Notes under the pieces: model-generated
What the model was told of the DNA's origin: nothing
Database searches by the model: none
What the model saw: the letters and a program-made list of their open reading frames with translations, nothing else
Translations under genes and position numbers: made by a program
From: Pseudomonas sp. G2-4
Lineage (GTDB): Bacteria > Pseudomonadota > Gammaproteobacteria > Pseudomonadales > Pseudomonadaceae
NCBI RefSeq assembly: GCF_030064125.1
Contig: NZ_CP125957.1
Coordinates: 5,388,501-5,452,500, forward strand
Direction of reading: 5' to 3'
DNA: 64,000 nucleotides
Shown here: positions 7,270-52,484 of the stretch, piece after piece
Layout of the letters: each line of letters opens with the position of its first letter
How positions within the stretch are numbered: position 1 is the stretch's first letter

Positions 7270-7480
7270 GCTCAATCGGATTTGCCTAGGCAGAATCCGC
7301 TCCGTCCTAGGGGAGTAGTCTCCCGCGAGCACCCTGCTCGCCCGGCATACGTCAACATACTTGGTCAGCAGACCATGGCGTATGCGGCCCAAGCGTCCAC
7401 GCAGATGGTCGCTGGGTTTGACAAGACCTATGACACGCACACCTTACCCGGGGCGGGAAGGCTGTACGTGTCATAGCCGT
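7270..7480 (+). promoter_or_regulatory. yybP-ykoY manganese riboswitch
   Basis: The leader of the GDT1-family gene contains the conserved yybP-ykoY core CCTAGGGGAGTAG (7306-7318). It also contains the second conserved stretch GCATACGTCAAC, whose flanks pair (GCATAC/GTATGC around GGTC/GACC). A 10-bp perfect hairpin, CTATGACACG (7428-7437) with CGTGTCATAG (7467-7476), ends about 32 bases before the start codon and is a plausible expression platform. This riboswitch class binds Mn2+ and turns on Mn export genes. The downstream gene is of exactly that kind. The boundaries given are approximate. Confidence 0.85.
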
Positions 7481-11408: not shown

Positions 11409-11758
11409 TCATCGCGAGCAAGCTCGCTCCCACAGGGAATAGTGGTGAACACCATTGCTGTAACACCCGCAGCCCACTGTGGGAGCGGGCTTGCTCGCGA
11501 AGGCGGTGTGTCAGGCGATGCACTGGTGGCGGGTGTACCGCTTTCGCGAGCAGGCTCCCACAGGGATTGGCGGTAAACACCATTGTTCAGGCACCCGCAG
11601 CCCTCTGTGGGAGCGAGCTTGCTCGCGAAGGCGGTGTGTCTGGCGATGCACTGGTGGCGGGTGTACCGCTTTCGCGAGCAGGCTCCCACAGGGATTGGCG
11701 GTGAACACCATTGTTCAGGCACCCGCAGCCCTCTGTGGGAGCGAGCCTGCTCGCGAAG
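11409..11758. repeat. REP cluster with a 128-bp tandem repeat
   Basis: This gene-free stretch of about 350 bases is made of alternating REP palindromes (TCGCGAGCAAGCTCGCTCCC and complements). A block containing GGCGGTGTGTC at 11502 recurs at 11630, so the period is 128 bases and two near-identical units are present, plus partial units at both ends. The units differ at only a few positions. The region separates the convergent chemoreceptor and SRAP genes. ORFs translated from it are artefacts of the repeats. Confidence 0.9.
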
Positions 11759-11782
11759 AGGCCGGCACAGGCGCCACGAAAC

Positions 11783-12406
11783 TCAAGCCGGAGTCAGACA
11801 CTCCGGCCCATTGAGCTTCGGATCATTGACCATGTTGGCCAACACCCGCTCGCGCAATTGCGCCGGCTCGCTGGCCAGCAACCCTTGCAACGCATACAGC
11901 GGCGTCTCGGGGTCGAGCCACAGGCGCTGGCCCTCTTCGTCCAGGATCAAAGGCCGGCGCTGACCTGCCGCAGGCTGGGTGATGACCGCCGTACTCAGCC
12001 ACACCTGCTCCTGCACCGGATACGCCTCCCAGATCGCGGCAAAGAACAACGACGAGCCCTCCCCCGGCGTCAGCCAGTAAGGACGCTTGCGCGTGCCGCC
12101 GCGCCATTCGTAGAAGCCGTTGGCCGGCAGCAGGCAGCGACGCTGGCGCAAGGCTTCACGAAACATCGGTTGCTCGGCCACGGTTTCCGCCCGGGCATGA
12201 GCGGGTGTGCGGGACAGGTCGGTCAGCCACGGCGGCGTCAGGCCCCAGCGCGCCCGGGCCAGTTCGCGCTGCCCCTCGGCGCCAGCACGCAGTATCAGCA
12301 CCGAATCGTTGGGCGAAATATTCCATTGGGCCTTCTGGTCGGCGGGAAAGCCGGGCAAGGCCGCGAAGGTGGGGTTCCAGCGAAACAGGGCATAACGTCC
12401 ACACAT
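11783..12406 (-). CDS. SRAP (YedK/HMCES) family protein with altered active site
   Basis: A 207-residue SOS-response-associated peptidase family protein. Family members crosslink through Cys2 to abasic sites in single-stranded DNA. MCGRY at the N-terminus supplies Cys2, and the NGFYEW motif supplies the conserved Glu at residue 100. The usual NARAET motif reads HARAET here (His at residue 70). The usual histidine-containing HDRMP segment is shortened to AAGQRRPLIL around residues 146-155, without a histidine. DNA crosslinking through Cys2 may persist, but reversal or rate may differ. Convergent with the chemoreceptor gene. Confidence is high for family, low for activity. Confidence 0.9.
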   Translation of the reverse strand: MCGRYALFRWNPTFAALPGFPADQKAQWNISPNDSVLILRAGAEGQRELARARWGLTPPWLTDLSRTPAHARAETVAEQPMFREALRQRRCLLPANGFYEWRGGTRKRPYWLTPGEGSSLFFAAIWEAYPVQEQVWLSTAVITQPAAGQRRPLILDEEGQRLWLDPETPLYALQGLLASEPAQLRERVLANMVNDPKLNGPECLTPA

Positions 12407-14892: not shown

Positions 14893-15099
14893 ATGCTTCA
14901 CGCCGAGAACCAGGATCGTCTCTATCTCATCAGCCCGAGCGAAGAACAACAGAACCTTGTTGGCAGTCTGTCTTTTAATGTGCAGGATCGACATTGGCTG
15001 GTGTATTGCGCCCTCGGTGGTCATCAACATGCTGACTTGCCGGAGACTGATCTGCTGACTGGGATTAGTGTTTTGGAGCTGTATTCCCAGGCGGCATGA
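14893..15099 (+). CDS. Small hypothetical protein
   Basis: A 68-residue reading frame (MLHAENQDRLYLISPSEEQQ) preceded by ACGGAAT, a weak ribosome site, 6-10 bases before ATG. It has no signal peptide or membrane segment, and the composition is mildly acidic with two His-rich spots (GGHQHAD). I do not recognise a family. It stands alone between a REP and the inverted-repeat element. Its use of both rare and common codons leaves the call uncertain. Confidence 0.45.
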   Translation: MLHAENQDRLYLISPSEEQQNLVGSLSFNVQDRHWLVYCALGGHQHADLPETDLLTGISVLELYSQAA

Positions 15100-15447
15100 A
15101 TTCCGCGCTTAACAGATCCCAGCGGGGGTCGATCTTCTCGTCCTGGACTGGATATTTCGTTGCAGGTGGGGGGGGTTGGTTCGTGTGTATACCCGTTGCT
15201 GCGGTAACGGCGGCTGGCGGTTCCGCTCTTACAGCGGGTCACTTTTGGAAGAGCGCCAAAAGTAACCAAAAGCGCTTTGCCCCACCACTCGGTGCCTCGC
15301 CTAGGCTCGGCATGCCCGAACGTAGGCATTGCTCCGTGGGCCCGCCGCGAAGGACCATCCATGGTCCAGCGCGGCTACCTCGGCATCCATGCCGAGGTGC
15401 CCACTGCGCAATGCCCACGTTCGGCCAGCGTGGTTAATGGGGCGTCC

Positions 15448-15519
15448 AGATCAAGATCAAGATCAAGATCAAGATCAAGATCAAGATCAAGATCAAGATC
15501 AAGATCAAGATCAAGATCT
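15448..15519. repeat. Hexanucleotide microsatellite (AGATCA, 11 copies)
   Basis: Eleven uninterrupted copies of AGATCA (15448-15513) are followed by one variant, AGATCT. It lies at the inner edge of the left arm of the inverted-repeat element. Copy number is likely to vary between isolates by slippage. Confidence 0.95.
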
Positions 15520-15569
15520 AAAGCAGAGCAAGAGCGGGGTATATATCCAGCATCTATGTGGCTGGACCA

Positions 15570-15736
15570 CCGCTATCGCGAGCAAGCTCGCTCCCACAAG
15601 GATTTGTGGGTGTTCACAGCATCTGCACACGACACAAAAAACCTGTGGGAGCAAGCTTGCTCGCGATGAGGCCAGTCCATCCAACATCTTCATCGCCAGT
15701 GACACCGCCTTCGCGAGCAGGCTCGCTCCCACAGGG
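15570..15736. repeat. REP triplet inside inverted-repeat element copy 1
   Basis: Three TGTGGGAGCGAGC-family REPs (near 15574, 15642 and 15711) occupy the centre of the element. The same three REPs, with the same spacers apart from point differences, occur in copy 2, so they belong to the element rather than being later insertions. Confidence 0.85.
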
Positions 15737-16083
15737 GAAACGCGGTCCCACCCAAACCAGGCCGGCTATAAGGCCGCCTCGGTGCGCTTTTGATCTTAGG
15801 CGCCCCGTTAACCACGCTGGCCGAACGCAGGCATTGCGCAGTGGGCATCCCGGCATGGATGCCGGGATAGCCGCGCTGGGCCATGGATGGCCCTTCGCGG
15901 CGGCCCACGGAGCAATGCCGGAGTGAGGGCACACCGAGCCTAGGCGAGGTGCCGAGTGGTGGGGCAAAAGCGCTTTGGTTACTTTCGCGCTTTTCGAAAG
16001 TGACCCGCTGTAAGAGCGGAACCGCCAGTAGCCGTTACCGCAGCAACGGATATACACACCAACCCCAGCCCAGAAATCCGAGC

Positions 16084-16126
16084 AAAAAAAACGGCGCTTC
16101 CTCATCCTAAGAAGAAACACCGTTTT
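16084..16126 (-). terminator. Intrinsic terminator of yajG
   Basis: On the minus strand an imperfect stem (ACGGTGTTTCTTC with GAGGAAGCGCCGT, containing G-U pairs) is followed by eight T residues. It lies about 35 bases past the yajG stop. Confidence 0.75.
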
Positions 16127-16161
16127 CCTTGAATCACAATTTCTACATACAAACCGAAACC

Positions 16162-16746
16162 TTACTCAGCCAGCACCTGCCCAATAGTCGGATCCTTGAA
16201 CAACCGAGTCAAAGCATCGCTCAACACATCACTGACCAACTTGGTATTGGTGTCCTGATTGGGCGCCATACCAAAGCGCTGATCCAGCGAAGCACCGTAA
16301 CGACCACTGTAGCGACGGTTGGCATTCTGCACATCGGAACGGAAAGTCGCGCCAATAGTAGCTTCAGTCACATACATGCCTTCCTTGGGCGACTGGTACT
16401 TGAGCTCGGCCAGGGTCACCGTCAGTTGCGGAGCATTCATGGCGTTGGCGGTGGGCGTGAAGCCCAGCAAACGCACCGCCGCTTCAGCCTGGGCCTGCAG
16501 CTTGGGCAAGATTTGCGCGCCCTGCACCGTGATCACGCTGGTTTCCGGATACAACCCGCCACGGGTACCCAGCGTCGGCGACGGACGACCATCCACAACC
16601 CGCACCACCACCGGCTGGCCACGACCTACAGGCGCCAGTTGGGCATTGAGCGTCGGCTCAGGGTTGAGTTGTTGCGGGCTGTGGGCGCAGCCGACGAGGG
16701 TCAGACTGGTCACAGCGATCAAACCGAACAACAGGCGTTGCAACAT
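16162..16746 (-). CDS. yajG: YajG family lipoprotein
   Basis: A 194-residue lipoprotein. The signal MLQRLLFGLIAVTSLTLVGC puts the lipidated cysteine at residue 20. The mature part matches the YajG family (NAQLAPVGRGQPVVVRVVDGRP, VITVQGAQILPKLQAQAEAA). Aspartate is not at position +2 (Ala follows Cys), so outer-membrane sorting is expected. The start at 16746 has a GGAGAGAAG ribosome site; the extension to 16800 lacks a lipoprotein leader. Function of YajG proteins is unknown; they are small periplasm-facing lipoproteins about 190 residues long. Confidence 0.88.
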   Translation of the reverse strand: MLQRLLFGLIAVTSLTLVGCAHSPQQLNPEPTLNAQLAPVGRGQPVVVRVVDGRPSPTLGTRGGLYPETSVITVQGAQILPKLQAQAEAAVRLLGFTPTANAMNAPQLTVTLAELKYQSPKEGMYVTEATIGATFRSDVQNANRRYSGRYGASLDQRFGMAPNQDTNTKLVSDVLSDALTRLFKDPTIGQVLAE

Positions 16747-49963: not shown

Positions 49964-50365
49964 GGGTTAATCCTTTAACGGGTGCTGGATTCGTCACTTT
50001 AGTAGAGCGATAAGGATTCGCACGGCGCCCCATCGTTGGCACGAGCAGAGACCGACCGGTGGTTTGTCAGGGGTTTTAGGTTTGTGTGTATATCCGTTGC
50101 TGCGGTAACGGCTGCTTAGGGTTCCGCCCTGACGGCGGGTCACTTTCGAAAAGCGCGAAAGTAACCAAAGCGCTTCTGCCCCACCACTTGGTGCCTCGCT
50201 AGGGCTCGGCATGCCCGAACGTAGGCATTGCTCCGTGGGCCGCCGCGAAGGGCCATCCATGGCCCAGCGCGGCTATCCCGGCATCCATGCCGGGATGCCC
50301 ACTGCGCAATACCTACGTTCGGCCAGCGTGGTTAATGGGGCGCCGAGATCGAGATCAAGATCCAA

Positions 50366-50404
50366 AGCAGAGCAGAGCAGAGCAGAGCAGAGCAGAGCAG
50401 AGCA
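50366..50404. repeat. Pentanucleotide microsatellite (AGCAG, 7 copies)
   Basis: Seven perfect AGCAG units (50366-50400) plus a partial one occupy the position held by the AGATCA run in copy 1. A short AGATC-GAGATCAAGATC remnant precedes them. Confidence 0.95.
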
Positions 50405-50439
50405 AAAGCAGGAAACCTCCAGCATCTTTGTAGCTGAAC

Positions 50440-50606
50440 CACCGCTATCGCGAGCAAGCTCGCTCCCACATGGGTTTGTGGGTGCTCACAGCATTTGGAC
50501 ACGACACAAAAAACTGTGGGAGCGAGCTTGCTCGCGATGAGGCCAGCCCATTCAACATCTCCATTGACAGTGACATCGCCTTCGCGAGCAGGCTCGCTCC
50601 CACAGG
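50440..50606. repeat. REP triplet inside inverted-repeat element copy 2
   Basis: Three TGTGGGAGCGAGC-family REPs (near 50447, 50515 and 50580) have spacers nearly identical to those in copy 1. Confidence 0.85.
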
Positions 50607-50967
50607 GGAAACGCGGTCCCACCCCAACCAGGTCGGCTCTCAGGCCGCCTCGCGGCGGACGTTGATCTGGGGCGCCCCGTTAACCACGCTGGCCGAACGC
50701 AGGCATTGCGCAGTGGGCAACCCGGCATGGATGCCGGGTTAGCCGCGCTGGACCATGGATGGTCCTTCGCGGCGGGCCCACGGAGCAATGCCGGAGTGAG
50801 GGCATGCCGAGCCTAGGCGAGGCACCAAGTGGTGGGGCTAAAGCGTTTTGCTTACTTTTCGCCGGGCCGCGCAGGCTTCTCAAAAGTGAGCCGCTGTAAG
50901 AGCGGAACCGTCAGTGGCCGTTACCGCAGAAATGGATATACATACGAACCAAAAAATCCAAAACAAA

Positions 50968-52143: not shown

Positions 52144-52341
52144 TGATCGACTACCATGCCGACCGCCGGTTCCCCATGGGACTAATAGGGAATCCGAGAT
52201 GCCTCGCACGGTATCAAACGGAACTGCCCCCGCAACTGTAGGTGCTGAGCCTGCTCCTCAATGGCCACTGGGATCGCTCCCGGGAAGGCTGGAGCCAGGC
52301 GATGACGCATCAGTCAGGAGACCTGCCGGCCAAGTCAATCA
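52144..52341 (+). promoter_or_regulatory. Cobalamin riboswitch
   Basis: The B12-box elements are present: GGTTCC (52168), GGGAATCCG, GGAACTGCCCCCGCAACTGT (52220-52239), GGAGCCAGGCGAT, and ATCAGTCAGGAGACCTGCCG (52309-52328). TGATCGACT (52144-52152) pairs with AGTCAATCA (52333-52341) to close P1 with one mismatch. Downstream hairpins (TGTCC/GGACA and AGCAC-TTTT-GTGCT) may form the expression platform. It lies 144 bases before the importer start. Adenosylcobalamin binding would repress the ABC transporter genes. Confidence 0.95.
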
Positions 52342-52484
52342 CTAACCGGCGGGGTGTCCGGGAAGGACATCCTTGCGCTGCGCGTCACTGGGCTGATCAG
52401 CACTTTTGTGCTTTAGCGGCAGCGTTCGATGATGTGTTTTCCAGTCCGTCCCTGCTCCGTGTACGGTCCATTGGAGATTGCATC

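Follow-up and report, generated by a model that had tools for sequence, protein, structure and literature searches.

TwoAYGGAY arms of a Pseudomonas element form a dispersed, mostly outward-facing repeat with putative Rsm/CsrA sites

The inverted arms of an element that occurs twice in a 64-kb window of Pseudomonas sp. G2-4 (the window is the whole stretch of DNA that we analyzed, 64,000 nucleotides at 5388501-5452500 of a host genome that is a single 6.65-Mb contig, G000:C1) carry the core of a known Rfam family, TwoAYGGAY (RF01731). Going by their sequences, we think that these arms are probably a dispersed RNA repeat that is read outward and exposes putative Rsm/CsrA sites. This places an orphan Rfam family in its genomic context: it is a repeat with many copies, mostly arranged as outward pairs, and its conserved fold is larger than the catalogued one. 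We see the repeat in Pseudomonas and, beyond it, in at least one further family of the class.

The element and its Rfam family

Copy 1 of the element (15183..16059) has two inverted arms flanking a REP-rich center, and copy 2 lies at 50084..50945; neither is assigned a strand. The inverted arms that the original prediction described as common to both copies are there: 15799-16064 and 50079-50344 match over 266 nt with 91% complementarity. Inside each copy, one arm is 83-93% complementary to the other, in blocks.

Using cmscan, we identified the nested hairpins of all four arms as TwoAYGGAY, for which the curated (gathering) cut-off is 43 bits. The cores of copy 1 are at 15315..15430 on the minus strand (left arm, 60.6 bits at 15310-15430) and 15815..15929 on the plus strand (right arm, 48.2 bits at 15843-15906), and those of copy 2 are at 50214..50328 on the minus strand (left arm, 59.0 bits at 50209-50328) and 50687..50802 on the plus strand (right arm, 52.5 bits at 50715-50779). 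Model R1 scores the same four cores at 128.0, 134.0, 128.3 and 136.4 bits. Since the left arms are on the minus strand and the right arms on the plus strand, both RNAs of each element would read outward. Everything else that the Rfam scan returned at a relaxed E-value was under the cut-off of its family.

RF01731 is an orphan family whose type Rfam labels as cis-regulatory. Neither the family of the core nor the suggestion of a CsrA link is new: CsrA binding by TwoAYGGAY was proposed from a motif match, according to the accessible part of that paper (PMC4333381). In the part of Weinberg et al. 2010 available to us, TwoAYGGAY is a table row giving human gut, gamma-Proteobacteria and Clostridiales (PMC2864571).

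All of the stems on which the original prediction was built were found in place in both copies. Hairpin 1 is at 15377..15398 (minus strand, ACCTCGG/CCGAGGT) in the left arm and 15847..15868 (plus, ATCCCGG/CCGGGAT) in the right arm of copy 1, and at 50275..50296 (minus, the ATCCCGG allele) and 50719..50740 (plus, the AACCCGG allele) in copy 2. Hairpin 2 is found, in the same order, at 15352..15367 (minus, GGACC/GGTCC), 15878..15893 (plus, GGGCC/GGCCC), 50250..50265 (minus, the GGGCC allele) and 50750..50765 (plus, the GGACC allele). The 22-base palindromes are also where they had been reported, but the description of a 10-base stem with a 2-base loop needs to be revised to a shorter stem that carries an ANGGAY hexaloop. 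We prefer the hexaloop because the loop variants CAAGGATG, CAGGGATG and CAGGACG are not self-complementary.

The center of copy 1 contains three REP sequences within 15574..15733 (at about 15574-15598, 15643-15667 and 15709-15733), and the left arm has a (GATCAA)n hexamer array at its inner edge (15449..15519); neither feature has an assigned strand. Tandem hexamers of this kind, for example (GATCAA)n or (AAAAGC)n, are frequent at the inner arm edges of several elements, perhaps due to slippage next to a strong fold. Elsewhere in the window, a REP-containing repeat of ~128 nt occurs three times in tandem (11418-11801), and there are a manganese (yybP-ykoY) riboswitch (7297-7419) and a cobalamin riboswitch (52152-52344), both over Rfam cut-offs.

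Covariation of the core

In RNA folding, each of the four cores gives a nested structure, with z-scores of -5.29 to -10.05, and none of 200 dinucleotide shuffles was as good. For comparison among copies we kept 53 cores from the host genome and 65 from others, after dropping short cross-matches and fragments. Alignment A2 has 56 cores from 13 Pseudomonas genomes (seven from the host and 49 of the 62 distinct cores from other genomes) and 35 pairs. In A2, 96.1% of cells are paired and 32 of the 35 pairs show double-sided change, in 287 cells. The shuffled means are 78.0% paired, 20.4 pairs and 59.7 cells, and 0 of 500 shuffles reached any of the observed values; slid-structure controls had 34-44% of cells paired, with 7-16 double-changed pairs and 31-55 such cells. 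Alignment A3 was fitted to the model, so we left it out of the pair counts.

The host genome by itself is less varied. Alignment A1 has 43 distinct host cores (two truncated cores were left out), and 5 of its 37 predicted pairs show double-sided change, including the stems described above. Four of these pairs are in the nested stems and the fifth is in the basal stem, with a few alleles reused many times. The original prediction held that both stem sides changed together every time. This is a good description of the nested stems, where half-changed states are rare (G-U at 59-86, G-U at 67-78 and A-G at 36-53, one each, in copies L071, L098 and L099), but not of the outer stem, which has mostly one-sided variation, such as a U-G at pair 19-105 in 11 of the 43 cores.

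We also counted changes as parsimony events, with random ties in A2. In A2 there were 65 double changes from one Watson-Crick pair to another, 34 changes from Watson-Crick to G-U, 24 to another mismatch and 4 to A-C, while four slid controls gave 1-3 double, 12-29 G-U and 14-26 A-C events. Over all pairs in the host genome there were 11 changes to G-U, 8 double, 6 to other mismatches and 4 to A-C. By the standard of the original prediction, changes on a single side would speak against it if they were as frequent as paired changes, and as a bare count this is what we see, with 62 against 65 in A2 and 21 against 8 in the host genome. In A2 the bare count is offset: most of the one-sided changes leave a G-U pair in place, and double changes are more than twenty times as many as in the slid controls.

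Exchange among copies

One could argue that gene conversion or recombination swaps whole palindromes, so that the apparent compensation is only a by-product. There are three hairpin-1 and two hairpin-2 alleles among 48 host arms, and all six combinations are present, so sequence has been shuffled among copies; the excess of one-sided over double events inside the host genome also fits with swapping. However, other genomes add 78 further pair types, compared to 57.4 when shuffled, and the inferred double events of A2 far outnumber those of the slid controls. Wholesale exchange, which the original prediction had listed as a possible refutation, is partly true of the host genome, and it is confined to variation there; as an account of the covariation in general, we consider it very improbable.

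The original prediction also offered a copying mechanism that repairs one side from the other. If this were so, arms of the same element should resemble each other, and they do not. For the 17 of 25 elements with two near-complete arms, the difference over all columns was 0.107 within elements and 0.110 between elements (P = 0.32); for the core it was 0.065 and 0.061 (P = 0.80), and for the outer part 0.148 and 0.159 (P = 0.12). This is evidence against one arm being repaired from its partner, and also against selection on arm-to-arm pairing. The latter matters for a reading in which the long inverted repeat is itself functional, as a two-arm double-stranded RNA or as a cruciform. The whole element does fold arm to arm, with a z-score of -41 (20 shuffles), but arms of one element are no closer than other arms, single arms are common and each arm covaries internally. 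We find this reading hardly credible.

Strand polarity of the fold

A symmetric DNA cruciform is expected to tolerate G-T and A-C equally, as these two mismatches are complementary. On the strand with GGA in the loops, the A2 cells have 96 G-U and 9 A-C, while the slid controls have 92-238 G-U and 100-214 A-C (ratios of 0.9-2.2). The bias is also seen in the cells of the host genome (18 G-U, 5 A-C) and in 10 neighboring arms, none of which is among the family matches listed (22 G-U, 2 A-C). With G-U far above A-C on the GGA strand, the fold has been kept on one strand and not as a symmetric cruciform. The part of the original prediction that proposed selection for a folded form is thereby upheld, and the form looks RNA-like; the part about repair is not, and exchange holds in part. 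We believe that, for repeats, comparing G-U with A-C is a simple test of polarity that distinguishes folded RNA from palindromic DNA.

A one-stranded fold is most simply read as RNA, although the sequence pattern would suit single-stranded DNA of one polarity equally well. The folded arms could be single-stranded DNA signals that are read by a transposase, as in IS200/IS605 or REPIN-RAYT. The high copy number, the paired inverted geometry and the central REP sequences are all in keeping with such signals. Given the evidence from the loops and from mobility below, we regard this explanation as unlikely, and we continue with the arms as a folded RNA.

Loops and the Rsm/CsrA sites

In A2, loop 1 is CATGGATG in 29 cores, CAGGACG in 17, CAGGGATG in 7 and something else in 3, and loop 2 is CATGGATG in 36, CAAGGATG in 9, CAGGGATG in 7 and something else in 4. 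Most of the loops are ANGGAY or AGGAY, and GGA is kept in 111 of the 112, a conservation that is partly built in since the A2 arms from other genomes were located with the RF01731 model, which contains the loop. The host loops are mostly ATGGAT, and of the 51 complete host cores found by blast, 49 carry a CANGGAYG loop on both hairpins and 2 on a single hairpin. We did not use loop counts from arms of named loci that had been selected by pattern. Outside of the genus, where the units were located in the same way and the same caution applies, GGA is present in loop 1 of all 26 units listed and missing from loop 2 in 7 of the 26 (by eye). In loci L304-L309 of one of these genomes (G244), 5 of 6 units have ACGAC in place of GGA in the loop of the second hairpin, and the second GGA site may have been lost there.

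In the available part of the RsmE study (PMC4005645), the high-affinity site is a hexaloop, ANGGAX, that sits directly on a stem; AGGAX, where N is omitted, is weaker. The loop variation in the arms matches this rule, A(N)GGAX, and that counts against a single-stranded DNA signal. Following the same source, as far as we could consult it, a sponge for Rsm/CsrA has GGA in stem loops and more than one of them per RNA, and the arms have both. A simple scan of 15100-16180 found no sigma-70-like promoter (0.4 expected) and one terminator-like site (1.6 expected).

A larger conserved unit

The conserved structure continues downstream of the core. On the plus strand of the right arm of copy 1 we see hairpin A' (15932..15951, CACC/GGTG, with TGCC/GGCA as the alternative in other arms), hairpin B (15977..16005, GGTTACTTTCG...CGAAAGTGACC, alternatively GCTTAC/GTGAGC), hairpin C (16005..16019, CCGCT/AGCGG, alternatively CGCC/GGCG or TCGC/GCGA) and a possible terminal hairpin D (16032..16049, CCGTT/AACGG), which is the weakest of the set.

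Alignment A4 contains 62 of 106 candidate arms, and in it these hairpins show compensatory change. One pair of A' is C-G in 35 arms and U-A in 24, and another is A-U in 29 and G-C in 23. Hairpin B has a pair that is G-C in 33 and C-G in 24, and one that is U-A in 38, G-C in 13 and C-G in 7. Hairpin C has C-G in 42, U-A in 11 and G-C in 3 for one pair and C-G in 31 and U-A in 26 for another. Hairpin D is weak in the alignment as well. Over the downstream region 94.0% of cells are paired, compared to 29-46% in slid controls, and 17 of 26 pairs show double-sided change, in 167 cells; the controls have 9-17 such pairs, so that one equals the observed number, and 14-44 such cells. Strand polarity is weak or absent here, with G-U against A-C at 4 to 2 in A', 2 to 6 in C and 17 to 14 in D; the 61 to 4 of hairpin B depends on a single pair, mostly U-G, without which it becomes 9 to 4.

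In G305, which belongs to a different family, a B-like hairpin is present 3' of the core in 11 of 14 units and upstream in 1 of 14 (shuffled 0.006), at a distance of 40-51 nt from the core in the four examples listed. The same pattern search found none in six units of G244, three of G228 and three of G292/G358. The pattern misses a variant that is common in Pseudomonas, so it finds only 26 of 53 host units and 30 of 65 other units from the genus.

Copy number and distribution

The host genome has 51 RF01731 matches over the cut-off. All of these are contained in 33 host loci that we picked by hand among the matches listed, leaving out matches to REP sequences only. Of the 57 genomes of relatives, 21 contain the family, 19 of them from the 36 that belong to the genus and 2 from the 21 that do not, and the number of copies reaches 108 in G060, with 35 in G015 and 30 in G001. 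In a draw across the class, with 18 candidates scored per genome, 10 of 143 genomes had RF01731 at E <= 0.001 and 8 were over the cut-off. There are nine matching genomes from outside the genus, and four of them have five or more matches: at least 18 in G305, at least 14 in G244, at least 13 in G228 and at least 5 in G292. In G228 and G292 most of the matches are under the curated cut-off. The core pattern was found in at least 80 named loci, and the 80 listed are all from Pseudomonas records. A search of plasmids with the element gave one weak match, which covered only the center (query 460-552).

Arrangement of arms and genomic setting

A blast search with one arm found two arm stretches, some of them partial or split, in 25 of the 33 host loci, and all 25 pairs face outward, with the left stretch on the minus strand and the right stretch on the plus strand. 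Across the other named Pseudomonas loci, 32 of 33 neighboring cores within 2 kb face outward; this count leaves out 19 low-scoring opposite-strand hits of 131 and keeps the weak same-element cases L182, L204 and L223. We inspected eight loci in G305, some of which were picked for having two close matches, and the six with two cores are outward-facing in each case. Pairing is not obligatory: of the 34 single arms (out of 46) that we checked within 269-1500 nt of available sequence, 26 have no inverted partner and 8 have an inverted match on the inner side, which for some is only 24-38 nt.

The center of the element is variable and can contain REP sequences, hexamer arrays or, in L110 of G010, a DUF6124 gene. 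Short ORFs between the arms of L070 and L089 in the host genome resemble this gene (by eye), and an ORF between two arms at L112:1280-2308 (G010) resembles what we take to be an IS110-type transposase. An insertion of ~1.3 kb splits three host arms at nearly the same position (L077, L078 and L089, at G000:C1:2285128-2286432, 2710029-2711336 and 4376045-4377349). In L078 the inserted sequence encodes a transposase of 391 aa that has both an rve and a helix-turn-helix domain; this points to an IS for which the arm is a target. We considered the DUF6124 gene, the similar ORFs and the IS insertions as the motor of the element, and we read them instead as cargo or secondary insertions.

Host elements are between convergent genes in 13 of 24 cases, compared to 11 of 55 neighboring gene pairs in the window; both counts used the same simple gene caller, which missed a 68-residue plus-strand ORF to the left of copy 1 (14893-15099). 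Several element ends lie just after terminator-like T tracts (by eye). Both observations would fit with arms that are 3'-end structures, either terminators or RNA stabilizers, kept between convergent genes. However, such a role does not need invariant GGA loops, a fixed order of hairpins or outward pairs, and 11 of the 24 elements are not between convergent genes. An insertion also does the least harm in a convergent gap, as is argued for other repeats in the portion of PMC2718517 that we had. We therefore hold a 3'-end role to be quite improbable, and we favor an RNA with exposed loops.

Mobility

At the locus of copy 1, a joined-flank search showed that all eight of the relatives that we inspected have both flanks and no arms. 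Seven of them have REP-like pairs at the site and L146 has a single short palindrome (by eye); with REP-like pairs present, this is not a clean empty site. The ends of the element fade out with no sharp boundary. A search for target-site duplications over 24 elements, the ends of which are uncertain, gave a longest flank match of 4.67 nt against 4.75 nt with shuffled partners (0.694 of the shuffles were as high), so no duplication was seen.

The lack of a target-site duplication or sharp end in these searches weighs against the single-stranded DNA signals introduced above, although IS200/IS605 insertions make no target-site duplication. The genes that might move such signals also do not follow the repeat. 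The transposase family Y1_Tnp (PF01797) does not track copy number, as G015, with its 35 copies, has no candidate and G001, with 30, has none at 1e-8, a search that could miss divergent ones. Neither does the reverse-transcriptase family RVT_1, for which G017, G026, G020 and G001, each with 20 or more copies, have none at 1e-8. On these grounds we consider neither a likely mobilizer.

Proposed role

We propose that every arm serves as the template of a folded RNA, which would be read outward from the center of the element. The first ~115 nt of this RNA would be TwoAYGGAY, a long outer stem that bears two hairpins with ANGGAY loops, and the RNA would run on into the conserved hairpins A', B and C. 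By analogy, two loops that are shaped like the best Rsm/CsrA targets mean that an arm, if expressed, most likely captures at least one Rsm dimer or is itself under Rsm control. A transcript that reads through the whole element would zip the arms together and the GGA loops would be buried, so single-arm transcripts or co-transcriptional folding would be needed. We infer transcription, Rsm binding, any effect on Rsm activity and the mode of movement. The arms would have spread as repeats that do not have their own gene, mostly in outward pairs around REP sequences, into intergenic places that are often between convergent genes.

If the loops do bind Rsm/CsrA, the number of repeat copies would partly determine how much of the regulator is free. 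A broader and more doubtful possibility, which we offer tentatively, is that TwoAYGGAY are mobile RNA repeats across the class with outward high-affinity Rsm/CsrA sites. A genome with 50-100 copies could then have a distributed and evolvable sponge for its main post-transcriptional regulator, or the repeat could be a selfish one that governs its spread through Rsm/CsrA.

Comparison with known systems

The arms share with RF01731 a match at curated score in all four cases and two AYGGAY-type loops on an outer stem. The Rfam model does not have the downstream hairpins, the outward pairing or the high copy number that we see for these arms. Titles and the starts of abstracts from the top-ranked literature, in which subscription journals are mostly not covered, gave no description of the element. 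Likewise, in those parts of the searched literature that were accessible we found no description of hairpins downstream of the core, of an outward arrangement shared by several families or of the high copy number. Some of these features may correspond to R178 or to other repeat families of PMC2718517. R178 is an intergenic repeat of P. fluorescens that is 101 bp long, has 11-bp internal inverted repeats and occurs 18 times in SBW25, 28 times in Pf0-1 and 9 times in Pf-5 (PMC2718517, Table 3, from the available part). Compared by description only, it resembles the core in size and in having internal inverted repeats.

MITEs are similarly short, with inverted terminal arms, many copies and no evident gene of their own, whereas for this element we found no target-site duplication, sharp ends or parent transposase (Y1_Tnp and RVT_1 were compared). 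REPINs and the REP-RAYT system are likewise dispersed as intergenic inverted pairs, and REP sequences are present in the center of our element. Here the arms are ~265 nt with TwoAYGGAY in them, and their copy number does not go along with Y1_Tnp.

RNAs that sequester Rsm/CsrA, such as RsmX/Y/Z and CsrB, also present GGA in hexaloops or pentaloops on stems and have several sites per RNA. RsmX/Y/Z capture Rsm dimers, and this is one of the two roles that we propose for an expressed arm RNA. In contrast to these RNAs, the arms are dozens of dispersed copies, each unit with two clear loop sites that are putative Rsm sites.
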